From the NCBI GenBank assembly GCA_002715375.1, contig PAZA01000071.1, positions 1 through 43,533 of the forward strand: a stretch of 43,533 bases of DNA. The letters are read 5' to 3'. The translations under genes and the position numbers were made by a program. The notes under the pieces were generated by a model. That model was not told the DNA's origin. It saw only the letters and a list, made by a program, of their open reading frames with translations, and did no database searches. The first letter of the stretch is position 1. Every line of letters begins with the position of its first letter. Of the stretch, positions 14,534 through 27,174 are shown piece by piece. This stretch comes from Halobacteriovoraceae bacterium. GTDB lineage: Bacteria > Bdellovibrionota > Bacteriovoracia > Bacteriovoracales > Bacteriovoracaceae.

Positions 14534-16927
14534 TTATATAGTTATCTCATCTCCATACCTTTTTCTAGTTTCGTAGTCTATTTGATTTACGCTTAGTGAT
14601 CCAAACTCAGGACTGTTACGACTTAAAACAATTAACTCTTCACTTTGCTTTTGTTTTTCAGATGTTAAGAGAAACTTATCATAAAGTATTTTTAAATGAT
14701 CAATCATTTCAGAAGATTTGGTTTCGCTTTTATTCTTAAACTGCTTAAGGTTATAAGTTTCAGTATCAATATTCTTTTTAGCCAAGTTGAACTCAGCTTT
14801 AACTTCATCAAACTTAGGTAAGTCTTTATTTTCTAAAAGCAATTGAATTTTAGAAAGAGCAACATCTAAGTTTGTCATTATTTGAGAAAAGTTATGGAGA
14901 ACTTTATCAAAGCCATTAATTTCCAACTTAATTTTTGAAAGGCTCTGCCCAAGTTTTGAAGACCCATTTTCAGATTTCTGAAATGCCAATGATTGATCAA
15001 TAGACCTAAGTATTTTATTTCTAAATTCAAAAATAGTGACTCTCAACTCTTTAACTCCGTCCTTCAGGCGAAAAACTCTTGAAAATGTTTTTTCATTTTC
15101 TTCGAAAAGAACCTTAATATCTTTAGACTTTCTAAGTAAATCACTTTGAATATTAAAAAATTCTTTAAAAACTTGGGTAATATTCTCAGAACTTCTTTCA
15201 ATCTCACTTTTAGAGTTGATTAATTCAATAATAGAGTTTTTGGTGTCATCAAACTTTTTCAAGACACTTCCCTGTAGTGCCCTCTTCTCATTAAAAACAA
15301 GTGTTAAATCATCTACAAGCTTATATTGGTCATAAAGATTATTTTCTAACCTTTCAATTTCTTTAAGAAGACCCATTCTTTGCTGACAAACAAACTCATT
15401 GTACTTACAAAACTTATCAAACAGTTGATTTATACCAGCAGCGTTGAAATCATTTTTAATATTTTCTTTAAAGACTGGATTAAAATGATTACTCATTAAA
15501 GCTTCTAAGCTCCTTGAGACAGGGCCTATTATCGCTTTTGTCTGATTTGCAAGGGTTTCTTCCAAAGATCTTAAAGGATAAAATAGGATCATTATTTTAA
15601 CTTTATCTGCATAATTAATGGGTGAAACATACATTTCGTAAGGCATGGTATCCGAATTAATTTTAACTTGGATTTGATATATACCCGCGATATTTTCTTT
15701 AAGAGCAGAAATGATTGGTGTGCTTTCCCCTAAATTTGTATATTTTTTAAGAAAGTCCCAAGTTAATATTTCATTCCTTTCCTTATAGTCTAAGAGACCC
15801 CAATTTTCATAAAATAATTTATTACCCCAAATAACATTTAGGTTTGAATCAATTAGAATTCCTGAAAAAGGCATTCCTTCTTGAAAAATGGCCCCAAATT
15901 CCATCCTTTTGTGAAGATACATTTTATATTTCTTAAAGTGATCTTTAAATTGACTTGAAAAATTATACTTTAGTCTATTTTTTAAAGGTATAATCCCTTC
16001 TCCAATGCATTTTAAAATAATATTCTCAATAGCAGAGCTATCCTTTTTATTTTTTGCTTTCTTTAAAAGTAAACCAAGGAATAGCAGGAGAAGAGTTCCT
16101 AAAAACAATCCAACTATAAATGTTAAGGAGTTTTTTGCATTTTTATAAAATGTCAATTTCTGTAACGATATAAGAGGACCAACTTTTTCATTCCAGGACT
16201 TATAGTTTTTTTCTAGTGACTTAATTTCCAACATCAATTTTTTCAAAAAACCTAAATACCTTTCCAACATAAATACTTCAGTATTAAGAGTTTTAAGGTT
16301 TTCAAGAATAATATTTTTGTCATTTCGGTTTAGGAGAGAGGAATTTGTTATATTTTTCATTCTTCTCAAATCAAATTTAATTTTATAACTAAATCGCTCA
16401 AGTTTTTGATAACTAAAAAACCCTGGTCTTTTTATTTTCCCAGGTGACATTTTCGCCTTCATTATTTTAGTCATCCGACTTAAGGTTCTCCATTGTTTTT
16501 GAGTAACGAAGTCACCAAACTTATTCACTTTTTTTCCTAGAACAAAAATAATGGAAGAAAGCTCCGGAAAAGAAAGTAATTCAGTCATAGAGTTTTTAGT
16601 TTTTCTTATACTATTCTGGATATTAACCGACTGTTTTTGTTTGCTTTCAAGAAATTTTAAAGTTTTGAGATCACTTTCAAACTTATTAAGAACCTTTATA
16701 CTCTCTCTTAATCTGTCATTTTCTATAAGGACTTTTAATCTATTGATATCTTTTCTTTCTTTGATTTCATCGAATTTATAGGATGCTTCAAATACTTTAT
16801 TTATTAAGTCAAAATTACCCATTCCTTTTTTCCAAAAGAAATAACCTCCATAACCGGTAATGCAGGCTAATGAAATAAGAGAGAAAATGAAGTAATAATA
16901 AAATATTCCACTAAGCTTAATTTTCAT
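14534..16927 (-). CDS. two-TM membrane protein with PAS-like domain and long C-terminal coiled coil, last gene of flagellar operon
   Basis: TM1 IFYYYFIFSLISLACITGYGGYFFW, TM2 LTFIVGLFLGTLLLLFLGLLL, PAS-like FSGILIDSNLNVIWGNKLFYENWG, long heptad-rich C-terminus. Likely start MKIKLSG at 16927 (track start 16966). Confidence 0.65.
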   Translation of the reverse strand: MKIKLSGIFYYYFIFSLISLACITGYGGYFFWKKGMGNFDLINKVFEASYKFDEIKERKDINRLKVLIENDRLRESIKVLNKFESDLKTLKFLESKQKQSVNIQNSIRKTKNSMTELLSFPELSSIIFVLGKKVNKFGDFVTQKQWRTLSRMTKIMKAKMSPGKIKRPGFFSYQKLERFSYKIKFDLRRMKNITNSSLLNRNDKNIILENLKTLNTEVFMLERYLGFLKKLMLEIKSLEKNYKSWNEKVGPLISLQKLTFYKNAKNSLTFIVGLFLGTLLLLFLGLLLKKAKNKKDSSAIENIILKCIGEGIIPLKNRLKYNFSSQFKDHFKKYKMYLHKRMEFGAIFQEGMPFSGILIDSNLNVIWGNKLFYENWGLLDYKERNEILTWDFLKKYTNLGESTPIISALKENIAGIYQIQVKINSDTMPYEMYVSPINYADKVKIMILFYPLRSLEETLANQTKAIIGPVSRSLEALMSNHFNPVFKENIKNDFNAAGINQLFDKFCKYNEFVCQQRMGLLKEIERLENNLYDQYKLVDDLTLVFNEKRALQGSVLKKFDDTKNSIIELINSKSEIERSSENITQVFKEFFNIQSDLLRKSKDIKVLFEENEKTFSRVFRLKDGVKELRVTIFEFRNKILRSIDQSLAFQKSENGSSKLGQSLSKIKLEINGFDKVLHNFSQIMTNLDVALSKIQLLLENKDLPKFDEVKAEFNLAKKNIDTETYNLKQFKNKSETKSSEMIDHLKILYDKFLLTSEKQKQSEELIVLSRNSPEFGSLSVNQIDYETRKRYGDEITI

Positions 16928-16972: not shown

Positions 16973-17932
16973 CTAAGATATCAGAGAAAAAAGATCTATA
17001 ACTGGCTTTTTACCTTTTTTCTCTTTACTGAAATTGCGTTCTTCAAAATAACTTTTTCCATCAAAAAAGTCGGAGCTGAGATTTCGAATAGGCAATACTT
17101 TCCCTTTCTTTGGTATTATGAGTGAAACGGAATGAAATAGAAAGTGGAAATGGAAAAATTCTTTTTCTGCAAAATCATTTTTAATGTAGGAAGGAAGGTA
17201 ATTAAAACGCTTTAACCTGAGGTCTTCCGTAACTTCAAGAAAGACCGTCTTTCTCAGGTTTTCTAAAAATTTATAATCAACAATATAATTTGGAAGAATA
17301 TTGGAAAATAGTAGGACTTCATTGCTTTTATCTTCAAAGTCAACTTTATACAACAAGTGATTATTAAAACTAAAATCGAAAAATATATCAAAAGACAAAA
17401 TGCCATCATAAACAGATTCATTTAATTTAAATGTAAGTAGAACTTCATTTTTTGCAAAAGCCTTAATCTTTTCTTTAATTTTTAATCTAACTTTATTGAA
17501 GTTAAAACTTTCATTTATAAAGCTAGATACTCTTATACCATCTCCGTCTATTGAGAAATTTAGATCCCTATAAAACTCAAACAATTCAAAGGTACCTAAA
17601 ATATCTCCGACTAAAGAAATGACTTGATCCCATTTCGAGAAATTAAGTTCATCTCCTTTATCGCAATAACTTATTTGAAAAACATTATTATTAAACAAAA
17701 AGAAATCGTATATTTTTTTTCTTAGATATTTATCAAATGAATTAGCAATATTTTGAAAATTATTAAGCTTGATTGGACTATCAACAGACTCTCTTTCAGA
17801 TTCGTTTTTCAATTCATTAAAATGATAAAGGACCTTTTCAAGAACAGGTTCTAGATTTGGATCTATAAGAAAATAAAGATCCTCTAAGGTTCTTATACCA
17901 TCGACATATATTTTATTTGTTAAATTCACCAT
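16973..17932 (-). CDS. hypothetical protein, downstream of fliA in flagellar operon
   Basis: Long ORF (319 aa), co-directional, 7 nt from fliA; no family recognised. Confidence 0.75.
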   Translation of the reverse strand: MVNLTNKIYVDGIRTLEDLYFLIDPNLEPVLEKVLYHFNELKNESERESVDSPIKLNNFQNIANSFDKYLRKKIYDFFLFNNNVFQISYCDKGDELNFSKWDQVISLVGDILGTFELFEFYRDLNFSIDGDGIRVSSFINESFNFNKVRLKIKEKIKAFAKNEVLLTFKLNESVYDGILSFDIFFDFSFNNHLLYKVDFEDKSNEVLLFSNILPNYIVDYKFLENLRKTVFLEVTEDLRLKRFNYLPSYIKNDFAEKEFFHFHFLFHSVSLIIPKKGKVLPIRNLSSDFFDGKSYFEERNFSKEKKGKKPVIDLFSLIS

Positions 17933-17939
17933 AGGTCAT

Positions 17940-18725
17940 CTAGCAAGATAGATCTTCCATCGAATCGAAGACGTTTTTAAGTTTTAACCTTAGCTTAATA
18001 ATTGCCTGTGTGTGGAGCTGTGAAACTCTTGACTCTGTAACATCCAACACTTGACCTATTTCTTTTAAGTTCAAATCTTCGTAATAATACAGAGAGAGAA
18101 CTAGCCTTTGCTTTTCAGGCAAAGCCGCGATCCACTCCTTAATCTTATCACGAGTGTTTTTATAAGCAACGGCGGAAAAAGGATTCGATTGCTTATTATT
18201 CTCCATCAAGCCTGCTAATAATTTTCGATCGCCCCTGCTAAATGAAGCCGTATCGTCAATATTTAACAAAGAAATTGACTTTGCTTTGTTTAACAAATCA
18301 TAAAATTCATCCTGGCTAACCTGAAGCTCATTGCACATTTCTTCATCTGTTGCAGGCCGACCTAAAACGACCTCTAATTTCGCATAAGTCTTTTCAACAA
18401 GCTTAGCTTTTTCTCTAATTGACCTAGGTACCCAATCTTGAGCCCTTAGCTCATCTAAAATTGCCCCTCGAACCCTGAACTCAGCATAAGTTTTAAATTT
18501 ATTATCTCTCGAAGGATCAAATTTCTGAATTGCATCCATCAAACCAATGACTCCACATGAAATTAAATCATCTAATTCGATATTTGAAGGAAGCCTAGAT
18601 GCAATTTTTTGAGCTATATATTTTATTAATGGAGCATATTCAACAATAATTTCATTTTTAACTTTAGGGTCTACAGTACATCTATAATCCTTTAGATTTT
18701 TTAATTTTTTAGATAAAGATGACAT
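17940..18725 (-). CDS. fliA: RNA polymerase sigma factor FliA (sigma28)
   Basis: Region 2 LISCGVIGLMDAIQKFDPSRDNKFKTYAEFRVRGAILDELRAQDWVPRSIR; region 4 LPEKQRLVLSLYYYEDLNLKEIGQVLDVTESRVSQLHTQAIIKLR. Confidence 0.96.
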   Translation of the reverse strand: MSSLSKKLKNLKDYRCTVDPKVKNEIIVEYAPLIKYIAQKIASRLPSNIELDDLISCGVIGLMDAIQKFDPSRDNKFKTYAEFRVRGAILDELRAQDWVPRSIREKAKLVEKTYAKLEVVLGRPATDEEMCNELQVSQDEFYDLLNKAKSISLLNIDDTASFSRGDRKLLAGLMENNKQSNPFSAVAYKNTRDKIKEWIAALPEKQRLVLSLYYYEDLNLKEIGQVLDVTESRVSQLHTQAIIKLRLKLKNVFDSMEDLSC

Positions 18726-18736
18726 TCAGAAAGCTC

Positions 18737-19588
18737 CTAGAAGAAATTTTGCCTGCCTAAATCACAAGGCGTCCTAGATGCCTCATCGGTAAATTTCTTA
18801 ATGACATTACAAAATTTTTCATGAAGCTTAGTTTTTTCCGTATTGAAAATTATTTCTTCAAAAAGCTCAGTGGAATTTTTTTCTGATGGTATTCCTCCGA
18901 GTATATTTAGTCTACAATCTATAAAATTTTGAACGGTGTCTCCCAGGCTCTTCACGATTTTATTATATTGTTTTTTGCTTGTTATCTTATTCAAAAGTAA
19001 ATGGTTCGAATGTATCCCATGATTCAGACTTAAAATTTTGATAAGCGAATAAGAATCTGTTATCGATGACTTATCTGGAACAACCACAACGATACGATAA
19101 TCACAATAAGCATTAATTATTAGATTTTCTTTGGATATACCGGCAGGACAATCTAATAAAATATAGTCGTAACAACTCTCTTTTTGCCCTAATATTTCCA
19201 GGATAGAATTTTCAAGTTTAACAGAACAATTAAACAAGTCTAAACTTCCATTACAACCTGATATTAGATGAAAGTTACCATCTTTATAAATACAATCATC
19301 AAGAGACTTCTCTTTATTTATATATTTAAAAAAATTATTATTAACAGGTATTCCTAATTTAACGACAGTATTAGACAAATTGTAATCGCAATCTATCAAC
19401 AATACCCTATACCCCATTTTAGATAAAACTTTACTCATCTTTAAAGAAATTGTCGTTTTTCCAACACCTCCCTTGCCAGAGGTGACAGCTATTGTAGAAG
19501 CTTTCCTTTTTGGTTTCTTATTTTTAATATCCCTATAGGAACTATTTTGAGAAATTAACCAACTTTGAACATCCGTTTCTAAAACCAT
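18737..19588 (-). CDS. flhG: FlhG/MinD-type ATPase
   Basis: Deviant Walker A SGKGGVGKTT, LLIDCDYNLSN, ILLDCPAGIS; adjacent to flhF and fliA. Confidence 0.88.
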   Translation of the reverse strand: MVLETDVQSWLISQNSSYRDIKNKKPKRKASTIAVTSGKGGVGKTTISLKMSKVLSKMGYRVLLIDCDYNLSNTVVKLGIPVNNNFFKYINKEKSLDDCIYKDGNFHLISGCNGSLDLFNCSVKLENSILEILGQKESCYDYILLDCPAGISKENLIINAYCDYRIVVVVPDKSSITDSYSLIKILSLNHGIHSNHLLLNKITSKKQYNKIVKSLGDTVQNFIDCRLNILGGIPSEKNSTELFEEIIFNTEKTKLHEKFCNVIKKFTDEASRTPCDLGRQNFF

Positions 19589-19607: not shown

Positions 19608-21071
19608 TTATTTAATCTGAAATATCCCTGAAAGAATTCTTTCTGATGTTGATGACTCTAAATCATCCGGTATAACTTTTCCTGTGCCAAAAAAGACAAA
19701 TGGTACTTGAAACTCACTTAAATTAAATACTGTTCCAAAATTAGCGCACAAATCCATCATCGAAATTGAAATCCCATCTGATAAAGCCTTGTACTTATTT
19801 AATATTTTTTTATTATAATTTTCAGAATGAATTGCAGAAAGAGACAAAATAATTTCTACATACTTAAAAACACGCTTTAGGCTTTCTACAAAACTCTTTA
19901 TATCAATGTCATCTTTTTCTGAGACTCTAAAGTCGATAAACACTGATTTGTTTTTCTCTACAGATTTTTTGGATACTGAAACTATTTCGGCAATATTATT
20001 GGTCGACACCTTCTCAATCAAAAAAATCTTTTCTGAGAAACTATCTGTTTTTTCTAAACTATCTTTTGAGTACTCGATCAACACTGAATCTTTTTTCAAA
20101 GAACAGATCTTTTTAATCATTGAACTTTGCCCACAAGAAGTTTCTGATACAAGAACAGTAATCGTAGGTTCTATCTCACTATCAACTTTTGAAAAGAGTG
20201 GCATTTTTAATGAAATTTCTTTTGTCATCTCTCTCAAGCAGAAGTCAAAAACAGCTTCTTCATTTTCAATCTCTTCATCAGATAACTCAAATAAGATCTT
20301 CTTAATTATCTTATTAATAAAAGCTGGACTTATATCAAATGTCTTCAACGTGGAGGTTAATTGATTTAAGCATTTTCTTTCCTCTCCAGATATATTATCA
20401 ATAACTCTTTTCATTGAACCTACAAGATTTTCCAAGTTTTTTATTTTCTCATTCTGATTCTCTAGCCTGCTATCTATGTTAAGTGCCATATCATTATGAG
20501 AACCAAGGCTCATTTTATTTTCACTACGAGTAACTTCTCTTTCTTCGATAATTTCTTTAAATTCAGAATCATCAAATTTACTTGACAATGGATTAGGTGA
20601 ATCAACTGCTTCCCTTAATCCTATATTTGAATCATTTCCTTTCGATGAATCAGGGTTATTTCCACTATCTGAATCCAAAAAATCATCCAGGGATATGTTT
20701 ACACCACCTTTTGTGGTATTAACTTTTTTATTAAGACCCAAATCACCGTAGCCACTCCCTTTCGATGCACCTCCACTAACTACCATATTTTTTCTCGGCT
20801 TGTGATTATCGATCATATTTGATAAATAGTTCGAGCTATTTTTATAAAATTTTTCATGCTGTTCATCATCAAGAACTTTGTCTACATTAGTTTTCTTAAC
20901 ATAACTTTTTTCAGAAATCGCTGCTGTTATCTCAATCCTCTTACTCTTAAAAGCACCCTTTATGCCTTTATTTGTAATAGTCTTTAATATAATCGCATCT
21001 GGTCCTAGCTCTTTCTTTATACTTTTTAAAGCTTCTTCAAGAGTATCTGCCTCAAATTTTCTTACAAACAT
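19608..21071 (-). CDS. flhF: FlhF-like protein with degenerate SRP-type GTPase domain
   Basis: FlhF B-domain MFVRKFEADTLEEALKSIKKELGPDAIILKT and C-terminal PFVFFGTGKVIPDDLE; position between flhA and flhG. Nucleotide-binding motifs degenerate. Confidence 0.85.
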   Translation of the reverse strand: MFVRKFEADTLEEALKSIKKELGPDAIILKTITNKGIKGAFKSKRIEITAAISEKSYVKKTNVDKVLDDEQHEKFYKNSSNYLSNMIDNHKPRKNMVVSGGASKGSGYGDLGLNKKVNTTKGGVNISLDDFLDSDSGNNPDSSKGNDSNIGLREAVDSPNPLSSKFDDSEFKEIIEEREVTRSENKMSLGSHNDMALNIDSRLENQNEKIKNLENLVGSMKRVIDNISGEERKCLNQLTSTLKTFDISPAFINKIIKKILFELSDEEIENEEAVFDFCLREMTKEISLKMPLFSKVDSEIEPTITVLVSETSCGQSSMIKKICSLKKDSVLIEYSKDSLEKTDSFSEKIFLIEKVSTNNIAEIVSVSKKSVEKNKSVFIDFRVSEKDDIDIKSFVESLKRVFKYVEIILSLSAIHSENYNKKILNKYKALSDGISISMMDLCANFGTVFNLSEFQVPFVFFGTGKVIPDDLESSTSERILSGIFQIK

Positions 21072-23147
21072 TTATAACCTCACAGTACCTAATGATTTTA
21101 TTTTCGTATCCGGACCTAGTTCGTTGTGACTAATTACAATTAAATTTGGTATAAATTTTTCTGTTAGCTTTTTAAAATGAGGCCTAACAACTGGCGAACA
21201 AAGAAGGACCATTTTTTCCCCTAACCCAGTTGCTTCTTCAATTTTTTCGTTAAGCAATGTTAAAATATTTTGGGTTATCTGTGGGTCAAGAGATAACTGC
21301 TGTCCAGATTCCGTTTCTACCATATTTTGAACAATTAACTCTTCTAAGGTTCTATCCAAACTATATAATGGAATCTCATCTTCAGCATTTTTAACACTTT
21401 CTGAGATAGTACGATAAAGGGCCTGCCTGGCAAATTCGGTCAGTAAAGATGCATCTTTTACAGAAATTCCATATTCACATAAAGACTCTAAAATAGTCCT
21501 AAGATCTCTTACTGAGACACCCTCTCGAAGAAGGTTTTTGGCTACAGATAAGACAGTACCTAGAGGCAATATCTCTGGAATTAAATCACTGACTACTTTC
21601 GGGTACTGTTCTTTGAAATTATCTAAAACATTAACGAGTTCTTGTCTTCCGAATAATTCATGCAAATTGGATTTTAAAACCTCTGTTAAATGAGTTGCAA
21701 TAACAGTTGATAAGTCAACAACAGTGTATCCATTATACTGAGCTTCATCTCTTTGATCTTCTGTTATCCAAACTGCTGGCAATCCAAATACTGGCTCAAT
21801 TGTTTCTACGCCTTCCATTTTCTCAATGACTGTTCCTGGATCCATGGCCAAAAAGTGATCTGAAAGAAGTTCACCCTTTGCAACCTCTATACCTTTTATT
21901 TTTAATGAATATCCACCAGGTTTTAATTCCAAATTATCTTTAATTCTGACCGAAGGGATTATTACACCCCAATCAAGTGCAAATTGCTTTCGTATATGAG
22001 TGATTCTTTCTAATAAATCACCATTCTGTTCAGAATCGACAAAGTTTACCAATCCATAACCTATTTCTAATTCAATAAGCTCAAGGGGCAATAACTCTTC
22101 CAAATTGTCTGGAGCTTGCTCTTTCTCCGATGTTTGTCTTTCCTTATCTTCTATCTCTTTTCTCTCACTGCTTTTTTCGATCCTATATGCCACAAACATC
22201 AGGATGCACCCGACAACAATAAAAGGTAGCTTCGGCAGTCCAGGAATTATTGCAAAAATAAATAAAACAGATGCAGAAAAATAAATTGCTTTGGGGTGAA
22301 GCTTAAGTTGATTACCTACCTGTACCCCTAAAGAAAACTCCGTATTGTTTCTAGTTGCAATAACACCAGCAGCAGTAGATATAATTAGAGCAGGAATTTG
22401 GGTAACCAAACCATCTCCAACAGTTAACAAAGTAAAAGTTTCGGCTGCCCCTGAAAAGTCTAGCCCACCTTGGACCATCCCAACAACTATCCCCCCGATA
22501 ACATTTATTACAGTAATCAAAATCCCTGCTATCGCATCCCCACGGACAAATTTTGAAGCACCATCCATAGACCCATAAAAGTCTGCTTCTTCTGCAACTT
22601 CCTTTCTTCTGTTCTTGGCTTGCTCTTCATCTATAAGCCCAGCATTTAAATCAGCGTCAATCGCCATTTGCTTTCCTGGCATCGCATCTAATGTAAACCT
22701 AGCTGCGACCTCAGCAACTCTTCCTGAACCTTTTGTTATAACAACGAAGTTTATTATTACCAGAATTATAAAAACTATAATTCCAACAACGTAGTTCCCC
22801 TCAACAACAAATTCCCCAAACGATCTTATTATTTGGCCAGCTGCTGATGTTCCATCGGAAGAACCTCTTAACAAGATATTCCTTGTGGAAGCAACGTTCA
22901 AAGAAAGTCTAAATAATGTAGTAAGCAGAAGGACAGTTGGAAAAGTTGAAAAATCAAGAGGTTTTCTTGAGTAAATAGAAACTAATAAAACAATAAGAGA
23001 AAAAGATAAAACCAAAGAAAGAAAAAGATCCAAAACAACTGGATGGATAGGAATAACCATCACGCAAAGGATTAGAAATGCACCGAATGCAACTGCTAAA
23101 TCTGAGTTGCTTGTAAATATTTTAAATTTTCCTAAAAAACTGTTCAT
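21072..23147 (-). CDS. flhA: flagellar export apparatus protein FlhA
   Basis: FPTVLLLTTLFRLSLNVASTRNIL, FVVITKGSGRVAEVAARFTLDAMPGKQMAIDADLNAG. Confidence 0.98.
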   Translation of the reverse strand: MNSFLGKFKIFTSNSDLAVAFGAFLILCVMVIPIHPVVLDLFLSLVLSFSLIVLLVSIYSRKPLDFSTFPTVLLLTTLFRLSLNVASTRNILLRGSSDGTSAAGQIIRSFGEFVVEGNYVVGIIVFIILVIINFVVITKGSGRVAEVAARFTLDAMPGKQMAIDADLNAGLIDEEQAKNRRKEVAEEADFYGSMDGASKFVRGDAIAGILITVINVIGGIVVGMVQGGLDFSGAAETFTLLTVGDGLVTQIPALIISTAAGVIATRNNTEFSLGVQVGNQLKLHPKAIYFSASVLFIFAIIPGLPKLPFIVVGCILMFVAYRIEKSSERKEIEDKERQTSEKEQAPDNLEELLPLELIELEIGYGLVNFVDSEQNGDLLERITHIRKQFALDWGVIIPSVRIKDNLELKPGGYSLKIKGIEVAKGELLSDHFLAMDPGTVIEKMEGVETIEPVFGLPAVWITEDQRDEAQYNGYTVVDLSTVIATHLTEVLKSNLHELFGRQELVNVLDNFKEQYPKVVSDLIPEILPLGTVLSVAKNLLREGVSVRDLRTILESLCEYGISVKDASLLTEFARQALYRTISESVKNAEDEIPLYSLDRTLEELIVQNMVETESGQQLSLDPQITQNILTLLNEKIEEATGLGEKMVLLCSPVVRPHFKKLTEKFIPNLIVISHNELGPDTKIKSLGTVRL

Positions 23148-23171: not shown

Positions 23172-24248
23172 TTAAGAAAGGGCTTTCTCTTTCCTTTTTA
23201 ATTTGTAAACAAAAGCCAAAATTTCTGCTACAGCCTTATATAAAACTCGAGGTATCTCTTCCCCAACTTTAACTGAATTGTACAAGTTTCTTGCTAAAGG
23301 GATATTCTCCACTAAAGGAATATTATTCTCTTTTGCGATTTCTCTTATTCTTAAAGCTAAATGATCCTTACCCTTTGCAATAACTTTTGGAGAAACCATA
23401 TTTTCTTTATCATACTTGACTGCCACACTGTAATGGGTAGGGTTTGTAACAATTACATCAGCTGTGGGAACATCATTCATCATCCTTTTTTGGGCCATCT
23501 CCCTTTGAATTGTCCTAATTCTTTGCTTAATCTCTGGGTCCCCTTCCTGCTCTTTAGTCTCTCTCTTTGCGGCTTCTTTTGTTTGCCTCAATTTATTTTG
23601 ATAGGAGATTTTTTGATAAGCGAAATCCAGTATGGCCACAAGAATCATCCCAATTAATATCAAAAAGGCTAACTTAATAAGTATCCACATTCCATGAAAA
23701 AAAGAGTTTTGAAACTCTAAATGAAGGAAGCCTCGATAACTATAAATATCTTCTTTCAAAAAGTAATAGGTAATAGATAAAATAAAAACAAATTTTAAAA
23801 TTGCCTTTAAACCTTCCGCTAAGGACCTGACAGAAAAAAGTTTTTTTACGCCACTAATAGGGTTGATTCTTTCTAATTTTAATTCTAATACTTGTGGAGC
23901 GAAAAGAAGACCTATTTGAGCAATATTTGAAAGGAAAGATACAATACCTGCAACTGCCATTACAGGGGCACAACACTTCAACATTGTCATTGCACTTTTT
24001 TCAACAAACTTCTTAAATAGGTCTTCTCTAAAAGTTTTATCGTACTCAATATTTGATATCCATTCAAAATACATTGAAATTTGTTCAAAAACAAAAGTCA
24101 TTGAAAGACCTATCGTTAAAATAGATGCGGATAGAATTAAAACACTATTAAGCTCTTTAGAAGAAGCTACTTCTCCTCTTTGACGAAATTCTTCTATCCT
24201 ACGAGCGGACGGTTCTTCCGTTTTTTCTGAATCGTTTTCTTCTTCCAT
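23172..24248 (-). CDS. flhB: flagellar export switch protein FlhB
   Basis: EKTEEPSARRIEEFRQRGEVASSKEL and autocleavage motif VTNPTHYSVAVKYD. Confidence 0.98.
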   Translation of the reverse strand: MEEENDSEKTEEPSARRIEEFRQRGEVASSKELNSVLILSASILTIGLSMTFVFEQISMYFEWISNIEYDKTFREDLFKKFVEKSAMTMLKCCAPVMAVAGIVSFLSNIAQIGLLFAPQVLELKLERINPISGVKKLFSVRSLAEGLKAILKFVFILSITYYFLKEDIYSYRGFLHLEFQNSFFHGMWILIKLAFLILIGMILVAILDFAYQKISYQNKLRQTKEAAKRETKEQEGDPEIKQRIRTIQREMAQKRMMNDVPTADVIVTNPTHYSVAVKYDKENMVSPKVIAKGKDHLALRIREIAKENNIPLVENIPLARNLYNSVKVGEEIPRVLYKAVAEILAFVYKLKRKEKALS

Positions 24249-24251
24249 AAT

Positions 24252-25046
24252 TTAATTTATAAAATTAAACCAAGTCCCTAACTGCTTGGTATAAATGTTA
24301 AAAGCAATATAAAAAAATTCGTCTATAATAAAGTAAAATACAATCAAACCTAAACCTATATTTACAACAAAACTGACTAATAAAACATTCATCTGTGGAA
24401 CTAGCCTAGTCACAATCCCAAGAAGGACAATAATCAATACGTTAATAAATATAATCGGAGAAGAGAGCATCAAAATTGAAGCGAAAGCTGATTTAAAAAA
24501 GTAAAAGTAATAGTTAGAAAAGTCTTTTGCCTCGATTAATTGATTAAAGTTTAAACTTTTAAAAGAAATTAGTAGCCCCTGGAACATTGGTATTAAAGCA
24601 CCAGATGAAATTATTAAAATTATCATAGACCATGTAATTAATTTTTCAAAAGGACCTGTTGACTGTGCCATACTTGGGTCAAAATAATTTACAGCACTAA
24701 AACCTACCTGTTGGGTTAAAACAGAACCTGCGCCTACAAAAATACTCATAATAATTTTGACAAAAAAACCGATCAACAAACCTGTTAAGACATAAACAAT
24801 CGTTAAAATCCAAAAATTATCTAAACCCACAATATCGATATCTCTATAAATATATGGATAAACAGATGATCCCAAAGCAAAAGTAAGCATTAAGCTAGTC
24901 AAAACTTTCACCATATTTGGAATATTGATTTGATCAAATAGAGGCAGTTGAATTAGAATCGCTAAAATTCTAGAAAAGCAAAGCCAAAATGCTATAACCT
25001 GTCTATAATCTGTGATTCTAATATCTATCATTTTCCTGATACCCAC
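24252..25046 (-). CDS. fliR: flagellar biosynthesis protein FliR
   Basis: Six-TM protein between fliQ and flhB; LTQQVGFSAVNYFDPSMAQSTGPF. Start may be MIDIRITDY slightly downstream. Confidence 0.93.
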   Translation of the reverse strand: MGIRKMIDIRITDYRQVIAFWLCFSRILAILIQLPLFDQINIPNMVKVLTSLMLTFALGSSVYPYIYRDIDIVGLDNFWILTIVYVLTGLLIGFFVKIIMSIFVGAGSVLTQQVGFSAVNYFDPSMAQSTGPFEKLITWSMIILIISSGALIPMFQGLLISFKSLNFNQLIEAKDFSNYYFYFFKSAFASILMLSSPIIFINVLIIVLLGIVTRLVPQMNVLLVSFVVNIGLGLIVFYFIIDEFFYIAFNIYTKQLGTWFNFIN

Positions 25047-26073: not shown

Positions 26074-27174
26074 TTATTGAAGAGGCTTAAGATCTCTTAA
26101 TTTTGTTTTTATTTGATCAGAAAACCTTTCTTTTCTATTCTTACCAGTTTTTATCTCTTTATTTTTTAAATCATTTATATTATCTTCTTTTAACTTAAAA
26201 TCTTTACTACCTTTATTTGCATCATCTAAATTCATGTCAAAGTTACTTCCAACCAAGGACATTTCACCACTTTTTATCACAGCATTTTTATCCTTTAGCT
26301 CTGTTATTAAATTTACTCCCTGCTCAGACGACCCTAAAAGTAATACTTGGTCATAAACTTTAACTACTAAAAGATTTTTCTTAGGACCAAGATAGGTTGA
26401 ACTTAATATTGAAACGCCTTCGTTATTCTTCAAAAAGCCTACTTTCCCCTTTTTAAAAAATCCCTTCTTAAAAAGGAAAAATACTCCATAAAGAAAACCA
26501 ATTATTATAAAAATAAAAACAATAAACTTAATTAGGTAATCATTAATTCCATTTTTTTCTTTCTTCTTTAATGTACTTGAAAGAGCTAGTTTAATTTCAT
26601 CTTCATTCATTTGATTATTTTTTTCAATTTTTTCTTCTTTTACATCGACCTTATCTTTCAGAAGCTTATCCAAATATGATTCGTCATATTTCAAAGCATC
26701 ACTCTTAACTATTCTTTTTTTATTCTGATTAGGCTTCTTATTTAGAAAAGATTTTCCTTTTTTAGTTTTAAAATATTTATCAAGAGGAAAACTCGCTAGA
26801 ATCTTATTTTTTTTAACCTTAATATTAATATCTCTATTTTCTAATCCATGATTATTTTTGAATAATATTCTTACTCGAACATCATCTTTGCTATATTGAT
26901 AAGCTAGCAAAGTCGTATTAAATTTCTCACTTCCTAAAGTGGTTTTCTTCTCAATCTTTGGCCAAACCACTGAAGAAGGAAATGTCAGTTGTAAAATATT
27001 TTTTTTCAGTAATATAGATGGTTTATTTTTAATACTTCCCTTAAACTTTACTTCCAACTCACCTTTATTGAAGTTTTGTTTAAAATTTATATCGTTAATA
27101 CTTAATTTTGAATAAGCCTCTGGAAATCCATATAAAAAAACCAAAGCAACTATAATTTTTAATTTTAAATTCAT
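26074..27174 (-). CDS. fliO: FliO-like protein with extended N-terminal (AMIN-like) extracytoplasmic domain
   Basis: Between fliN and fliP; signal peptide; TM LIKFIVFIFIIIGFLYGVFFLF followed by FliO-like GVSILSSTYLGPKKNLLVVKVYDQVLLLGSSEQGVNLITEL. Confidence 0.8.
   Translation of the reverse strand: MNLKLKIIVALVFLYGFPEAYSKLSINDINFKQNFNKGELEVKFKGSIKNKPSILLKKNILQLTFPSSVVWPKIEKKTTLGSEKFNTTLLAYQYSKDDVRVRILFKNNHGLENRDINIKVKKNKILASFPLDKYFKTKKGKSFLNKKPNQNKKRIVKSDALKYDESYLDKLLKDKVDVKEEKIEKNNQMNEDEIKLALSSTLKKKEKNGINDYLIKFIVFIFIIIGFLYGVFFLFKKGFFKKGKVGFLKNNEGVSILSSTYLGPKKNLLVVKVYDQVLLLGSSEQGVNLITELKDKNAVIKSGEMSLVGSNFDMNLDDANKGSKDFKLKEDNINDLKNKEIKTGKNRKERFSDQIKTKLRDLKPLQ

Follow-up and report, generated by a model that had tools for sequence, protein, structure and literature searches.

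The FlhF protein of the Bacteriovoracales, an order of largely predatory bacteria, carries a rebuilt GTP pocket that is ancient and fixed order-wide rather than the drift of a single genome, and its sequence indicates that the protein probably cannot bind GTP. Elsewhere, FlhF uses GTP in placing the flagellum at the cell pole. To our knowledge, no SRP-type pseudo-GTPase has previously been known in bacteria, and the FlhF of Bacteriovoracales would be the first.

FlhF is encoded in a conserved flagellar gene cluster

The window analyzed here is a stretch of 43,533 nucleotides from a Halobacteriovoraceae bacterium (contig PAZA01000071.1) with a flagellar cluster in the order fliL-fliM-fliN-fliO-fliP-fliR-flhB-flhA-flhF-flhG-fliA. 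It includes the following features:

14534–16927, minus strand: order-restricted membrane protein with a transmembrane segment, a helical domain, another transmembrane segment, a PAS fold and a long coiled coil
16973–17932, minus strand: 319-aa protein of no known family, encoded between fliA and the PAS membrane protein and recognized in 27 of 53 order loci
17940–18725, minus strand: fliA/whiG, flagellar sigma factor
18737–19588, minus strand: flhG, MinD-type ATPase with an intact Walker A motif and an N-terminal SWLISQN, without the DQAxxLR enhancer helix
19608–21071, minus strand: flhF, putative pseudo-GTPase form, with B domain (aa 1–90), linker (91–190), coil and N domain (192–290) and degenerate G domain (301–487)
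20802–21071, minus strand: B domain of FlhF, homolog of the FliG-interaction domain, with a profile match to FlhF 9en1
21072–23147, minus strand: flhA, canonical export gate
23172–24248, minus strand: flhB, canonical
24252–25046, minus strand: fliR, canonical

The succession flhA-flhF-flhG-fliA recurs in all 53 order loci with long flanks. The FliO protein of the window (26074–27174, minus strand) is unusually long at 366 aa, with its FliO domain at residues 234–301 behind a long N-terminal extension.

The ORF at 19608–21071 is FlhF, composed of a B domain and an SRP-type NG fold. It is intact, begins with ATG, encodes 487 aa and abuts the flhA stop codon (TAAATG). The FlhF family model TIGR03499 matches from residue 1 over the B/N part (E 9e-17; 62 bits, with the cut-off at 174) and also matches 63 of 63 order members tested, and the match to PF00448 is confined to positions 72–195, which cover the later half of the G domain and omit the P-loop. 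Full-length orthology follows from the hhalign comparison of order FlhF with canonical FlhF (probability 100, E 1.8e-68, 448 columns), and the solved FlhF B domain 9en1 was retrieved as a profile match at E 0.003; a PDB search with the single sequence returned noise only, and haemagglutinin matches in the profile search were rejected as coiled-coil noise. With a mean JSD of 0.65, the B domain is among the best-conserved parts of the protein across the order. AlphaFold2, run on the order alignment, modeled a confident B domain, helix and NG domain (NG pLDDT mostly >90), and Foldseek ranked GDP-bound FlhF of S. putrefaciens (8r9r, TM 0.71) as the best solved structure, with B. subtilis FlhF (2px0) at 0.69; these results bear on the fold, the pocket not being seen in atomic detail. 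The family match, the hhalign alignment, the gene order and the NG fold all uphold the original prediction that this gene is flhF.

The GTPase motifs are replaced throughout the order

We aligned 95 distinct FlhF sequences from Bacteriovoracales (Bacteriovorax, Halobacteriovorax and many MAG genera) and, for comparison, 36 from other families of the same phylum. The aligned motifs of the window read VLVSETSCGQSSM at the former G1, VFIDFRVSEKD at the former G3 and SISMMDLCANFG at the former G4, and the closing block FFGTGKVIPDDLE is kept. The three former motifs are located as follows:

20115–20147, minus strand: former G1/P-loop, SETSCGQSSMI (aa 309–319), with Gln315 replacing the invariant Lys
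19917–19934, minus strand: former G3, DFRVSE (aa 380–385), with the Asp kept and Thr, Gly and Arg lost
19746–19763, minus strand: former G4, SMMDLC (aa 437–442), with the Asp kept, Lys and Glu lost and an order-specific Cys

The P-loop lysine is replaced by Gln315 in 95 of 95 order FlhF and present in all 36 others from the phylum; its first glycine has become Ser309 with the same distribution (95/95, against Gly in 36/36). Retained are the third conserved P-loop glycine (Gly314, 94/95) and, beside the lost lysine, the Mg-ligand Ser/Thr316 (93/95). The DTxGR of G3 has turned into D(Y/V/L)x.., in which Asp380 is kept in every sequence and Thr, Gly and Arg are lost. At G4 (TKxD), two of the 95 have Lys at the aligned column and 94 keep Asp440, and Cys442 is near-invariant within the order. 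The G2/IBD motif DxxRxxAxxQL is gone, and the spacing from G1 to G3 is shorter (mean 66 vs 72), with the closing block TGxVxPDD(I/L)E still present. Bacteriovorax sp. BSW11_IV (L072), Bacteriovorax sp. DB6_IX (L083) and Halobacteriovorax marinus (L080) show the same motif state.

MAFFT, an HMM profile against SRP54 3dm5 and hhalign against canonical FlhF all agree with the motif positions originally assigned by eye, and the alignment is firm because the SRP54 profile match and hhalign assign identical residues to each motif. The motif loss originally predicted is upheld: G1, G2, G3 and, in nearly all sequences, the G4 lysine are gone from the 95 aligned order members, none of which has a Walker A motif (A/GxxxxGK[ST]) or DTxG at any position that could stand in for the altered ones.

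What did not hold is the attribution of these changes to sequence drift, since the replacement residues are conserved order-wide at very low dN/dS. Close species pairs gave dN/dS values of 0.005–0.085 for the G domain, similar to the B domain, with a loose linker. Conservation is higher at the former motif positions than in the remaining G domain (permutation p 0.012), and the IBD region is the least conserved of the G-domain motif regions measured (JSD 0.36). Strong purifying selection on an apparently dead G domain means that the domain is needed. Drift or a pseudogene in the MAG of the window was rejected because all relatives share this state under strong selection, and the Lys-to-Gln change, common to every relative, excludes chance or an assembly error.

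No spare canonical FlhF

The presence of a second canonical FlhF elsewhere in the genome was considered and rejected. Fifteen near-complete order genomes encode a pair of canonical SRP GTPases, presumably Ffh and FtsY, beside the pseudo-FlhF and no third one, and a phylum scan found no match at canonical-FlhF-level E-values among about 130 order genomes. The genome of the window is 72% complete, so this argument rests on its complete relatives. Two genomes of the same genus (G001 and G002) are without flhF and also without flhA; for G001, the absence of flhF is probably due to missing sequence, given that flhA is absent too and the downstream operon gene lies at a contig edge.

Distribution of FlhF forms across the phylum

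The FlhF proteins of the order form one clade (SH-aLRT 100) on a long stem of 3.28 changes per column, in a quick tree whose deep joins are unsure. A few order members (e.g., L028 and L079) combine the P-loop Gln with a G4-like Lys, which suggests that the P-loop change preceded the loss of the G4 lysine. The most divergent member of the clade, L031 (genome G005), has about 30% identity to the window copy, and its FlhG is without the N-terminal WL extension described below.

Intermediate forms are found in group f6, presumed to be Bdellovibrionaceae, and in group f19, with an intact P-loop GxGKT, an altered G3 and no G4 lysine; the partly degenerate copies are L045, L046, L055, L056, L058, L060, L062 and L164 in f6 and L146, L149 and L158 in f19. 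Guanine specificity may have been lost in these groups, given the altered G3 and the missing G4 lysine in the copies read. Bdellovibrionaceae FlhF (group f6, the family being inferred) resembles the order form in the lost G4 lysine (TG(I/L)DE, NHLDE) and, in copies read, the altered G3, but differs from it in its intact P-loop (GPAGSGKT) and IBD, so that nucleotide binding is plausible there. The FlhG proteins of f6 and f19 are without DQAxxLR. Families f3 and f23 (L148, L150–L151, L153–L157, L159–L161 and L163) have a short FlhF of about 350–390 aa with a P-loop and, in the copies read, without the canonical C-terminal TG..VPDD block; their FlhG mostly has little or no N-terminal extension.

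FlhG and a candidate polar partner

FlhG stimulates FlhF through a glutamine in its N-terminal DQAxxLR helix (reviewed in PMC12826062). This motif is found in 0 of 105 order FlhG, all with intact Walker A, and its place is taken by an order-specific WL motif, (E/D)WL(L)SQN, in 87 of 89 distinct order FlhG and 0 of 33 outside the order. We had considered the loss of DQAxxLR as a sign of specific FlhF–FlhG co-evolution, a candidate weakened by FlhG proteins outside the order, where several lineages whose FlhF is canonical are missing the motif as well. The absence of DQAxxLR therefore agrees with a lost GTPase without being specific evidence for it.

The gene of the PAS membrane protein lies downstream in the flhF operon in 52 of 53 order loci with long flanks, and the protein occurs in 92 of 94 order genomes and, as a marginal case, in 1 of 195 other genomes of the phylum. 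Pfam has no family for the window copy, whose ORF runs to 16966 and, judging from the conserved Met14, may start at 16927. By position and distribution, this PAS/coiled-coil protein is a candidate FlhF partner that could serve as polar landmark or sensor. The known FlhF recruiter FipA (DUF2802) was found in 0 of 9 order genomes and is present in three Bdellovibrio-type genomes. No FimV C-terminal domain scored above the cut-off in the order genomes tested, one of which has a sub-threshold match, and HubP varies too much for the FimV/HubP HMM to exclude its presence.

A proposed nucleotide-independent adaptor and its alternatives

A single polar flagellum has been described in the genus Halobacteriovorax (PMC5760749, PMC12724312), and flagellar positioning in Bacteriovoracales probably does not depend on a GTP switch. 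In V. alginolyticus, the FlhF mutants T306A and D439A are null and abolish flagellation, K305A, K437A, G299A, G304A and D377A have partial effects, and R334A is normal (PMC6092412). Counterparts of T306, D377, G304 and D439 are still present in order FlhF, and those of K305, K437, G299, G380 and R334 are gone; by alignment, the protein has thus kept the residues with the worst mutants and shed several phosphate and base contacts. Since K305A and K437A mutants still form some flagella, the absence of these residues does not strictly prove that a protein is nucleotide-free. A scaffold role is plausible by analogy, as it fits the nucleotide-independent interactions of other FlhF proteins: in Shewanella, the B domain (FID) binds FliG and the NG domain binds the landmark HubP, unaffected by GTP or GDP, though Shewanella FlhF, unlike the form proposed here, is an active GTPase stimulated by FlhG (PMC11236974).

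We consider it likely that the order-wide pseudo-GTPase FlhF is a fixed, nucleotide-independent adaptor that leaves switching to the FlhG ATPase. The sequences show that one ancestral replacement removed the phosphate-binding Lys and Gly, the catalytic and dimerization segment G2/IBD and the DTxGR switch, along with the guanine-specificity lysine of G4 in nearly all members. Strong selection has kept the NG fold, the closing loop and the B domain that binds FliG. The resulting protein would neither bind nor hydrolyze GTP; its B domain would hold FliG and, through FliG, also FliF, and its rebuilt NG domain would hold a polar or membrane partner irrespective of nucleotide. On/off control would lie with the FlhG ATPase and C-ring assembly in place of GTP, FlhG acting without the glutamine finger that triggers FlhF hydrolysis; that the WL helix specific to FlhG of the order docks on the apparently dead NG domain is a guess. 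A version in which FlhF is permanently nucleotide-free order-wide, the former P-loop is now an invariant surface for binding a protein or ligand, and the new FlhG helix and the PAS protein of the same operon took over regulation and polar anchoring is put forward tentatively and seems rather doubtful to us.

One counterpoint to an adaptor is that stable FlhF–FliG association in P. aeruginosa needs a GTP analogue (PMC12713375). Another is the rebuilt pocket itself, whose strict conservation (Ser309, Gln315 and Asp380 in 95/95, Gly314 and Asp440 in 94/95, Cys442 near-invariant) could mean ligand binding. The pocket might then accommodate a different ligand, such as another nucleotide, a second messenger or a partner side chain, and work as a switch that is not a GTP switch; we think this unlikely, as folding can also conserve a pocket, the IBD and the base-recognition lysine are lost, and the family matches point to no ligand class. 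We know of no GTP-binding FlhF with as many motif losses as that of the order, from which the P-loop lysine, two P-loop glycines, the G4 lysine and the IBD have disappeared together, and other FlhF of the phylum with lost G3/G4 residues have an intact P-loop. Weak GTP binding without hydrolysis, via Gln315, Ser/Thr316, Asp380 and Asp440, is therefore quite improbable in our judgment, even though the Mg-ligand Ser/Thr (93/95) and the aspartates of G3 and G4 are kept and some FlhF proteins need GTP binding and not hydrolysis (PMC6092412).

The composite-site dimers of SRP GTPases and the presence of two canonical members in order genomes would permit FlhF to be the dead subunit of a heterodimer with an active partner (FtsY or Ffh), but the IBD, which is much of the dimer interface, is poorly conserved, and gene order gives no pointer to such a pairing, which strikes us as very improbable. 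It is scarcely credible that the gene is a decaying, non-functional relic or an assembly error: low Pfam and NCBIfam scores could be read that way, but orthologous ORFs are intact in kin genomes, dN/dS is below 0.1, residues are invariant, and the operon position is fixed in 53 of 53 loci.

Relation to known systems and significance

The order form shares with the SRP-type GTPase FlhF (TIGR03499; 2px0/2px3, 8r9r) its architecture of B domain, linker and NG domain, its fold and its place between flhA and flhG, but lacks G1, G2/IBD, G3 and the G4 lysine and scores below the family cut-off, and the accompanying FlhG differs from the canonical system in lacking the DQAxxLR helix. Eukaryotic pseudoGTPases such as degenerate septins (PMC10731463) and domains of p190RhoGAP (PMC5593906) similarly keep the G-domain fold and have lost nucleotide motifs, but these families are unrelated to FlhF. 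The open-access literature searched yielded no bacterial SRP-type pseudoGTPase and nothing on FlhF in combination with either pseudo-GTPase or Bacteriovorax.

Point-mutant studies in different species disagree on whether flagellar placement by FlhF needs GTP binding or hydrolysis. The Bacteriovoracales offer a natural test, having lost every GTP motif and kept both FlhF and a single polar flagellum. If our interpretation is true, tethering would be separable from the GTP switch, and the FlhG ATPase would be the remaining regulator.
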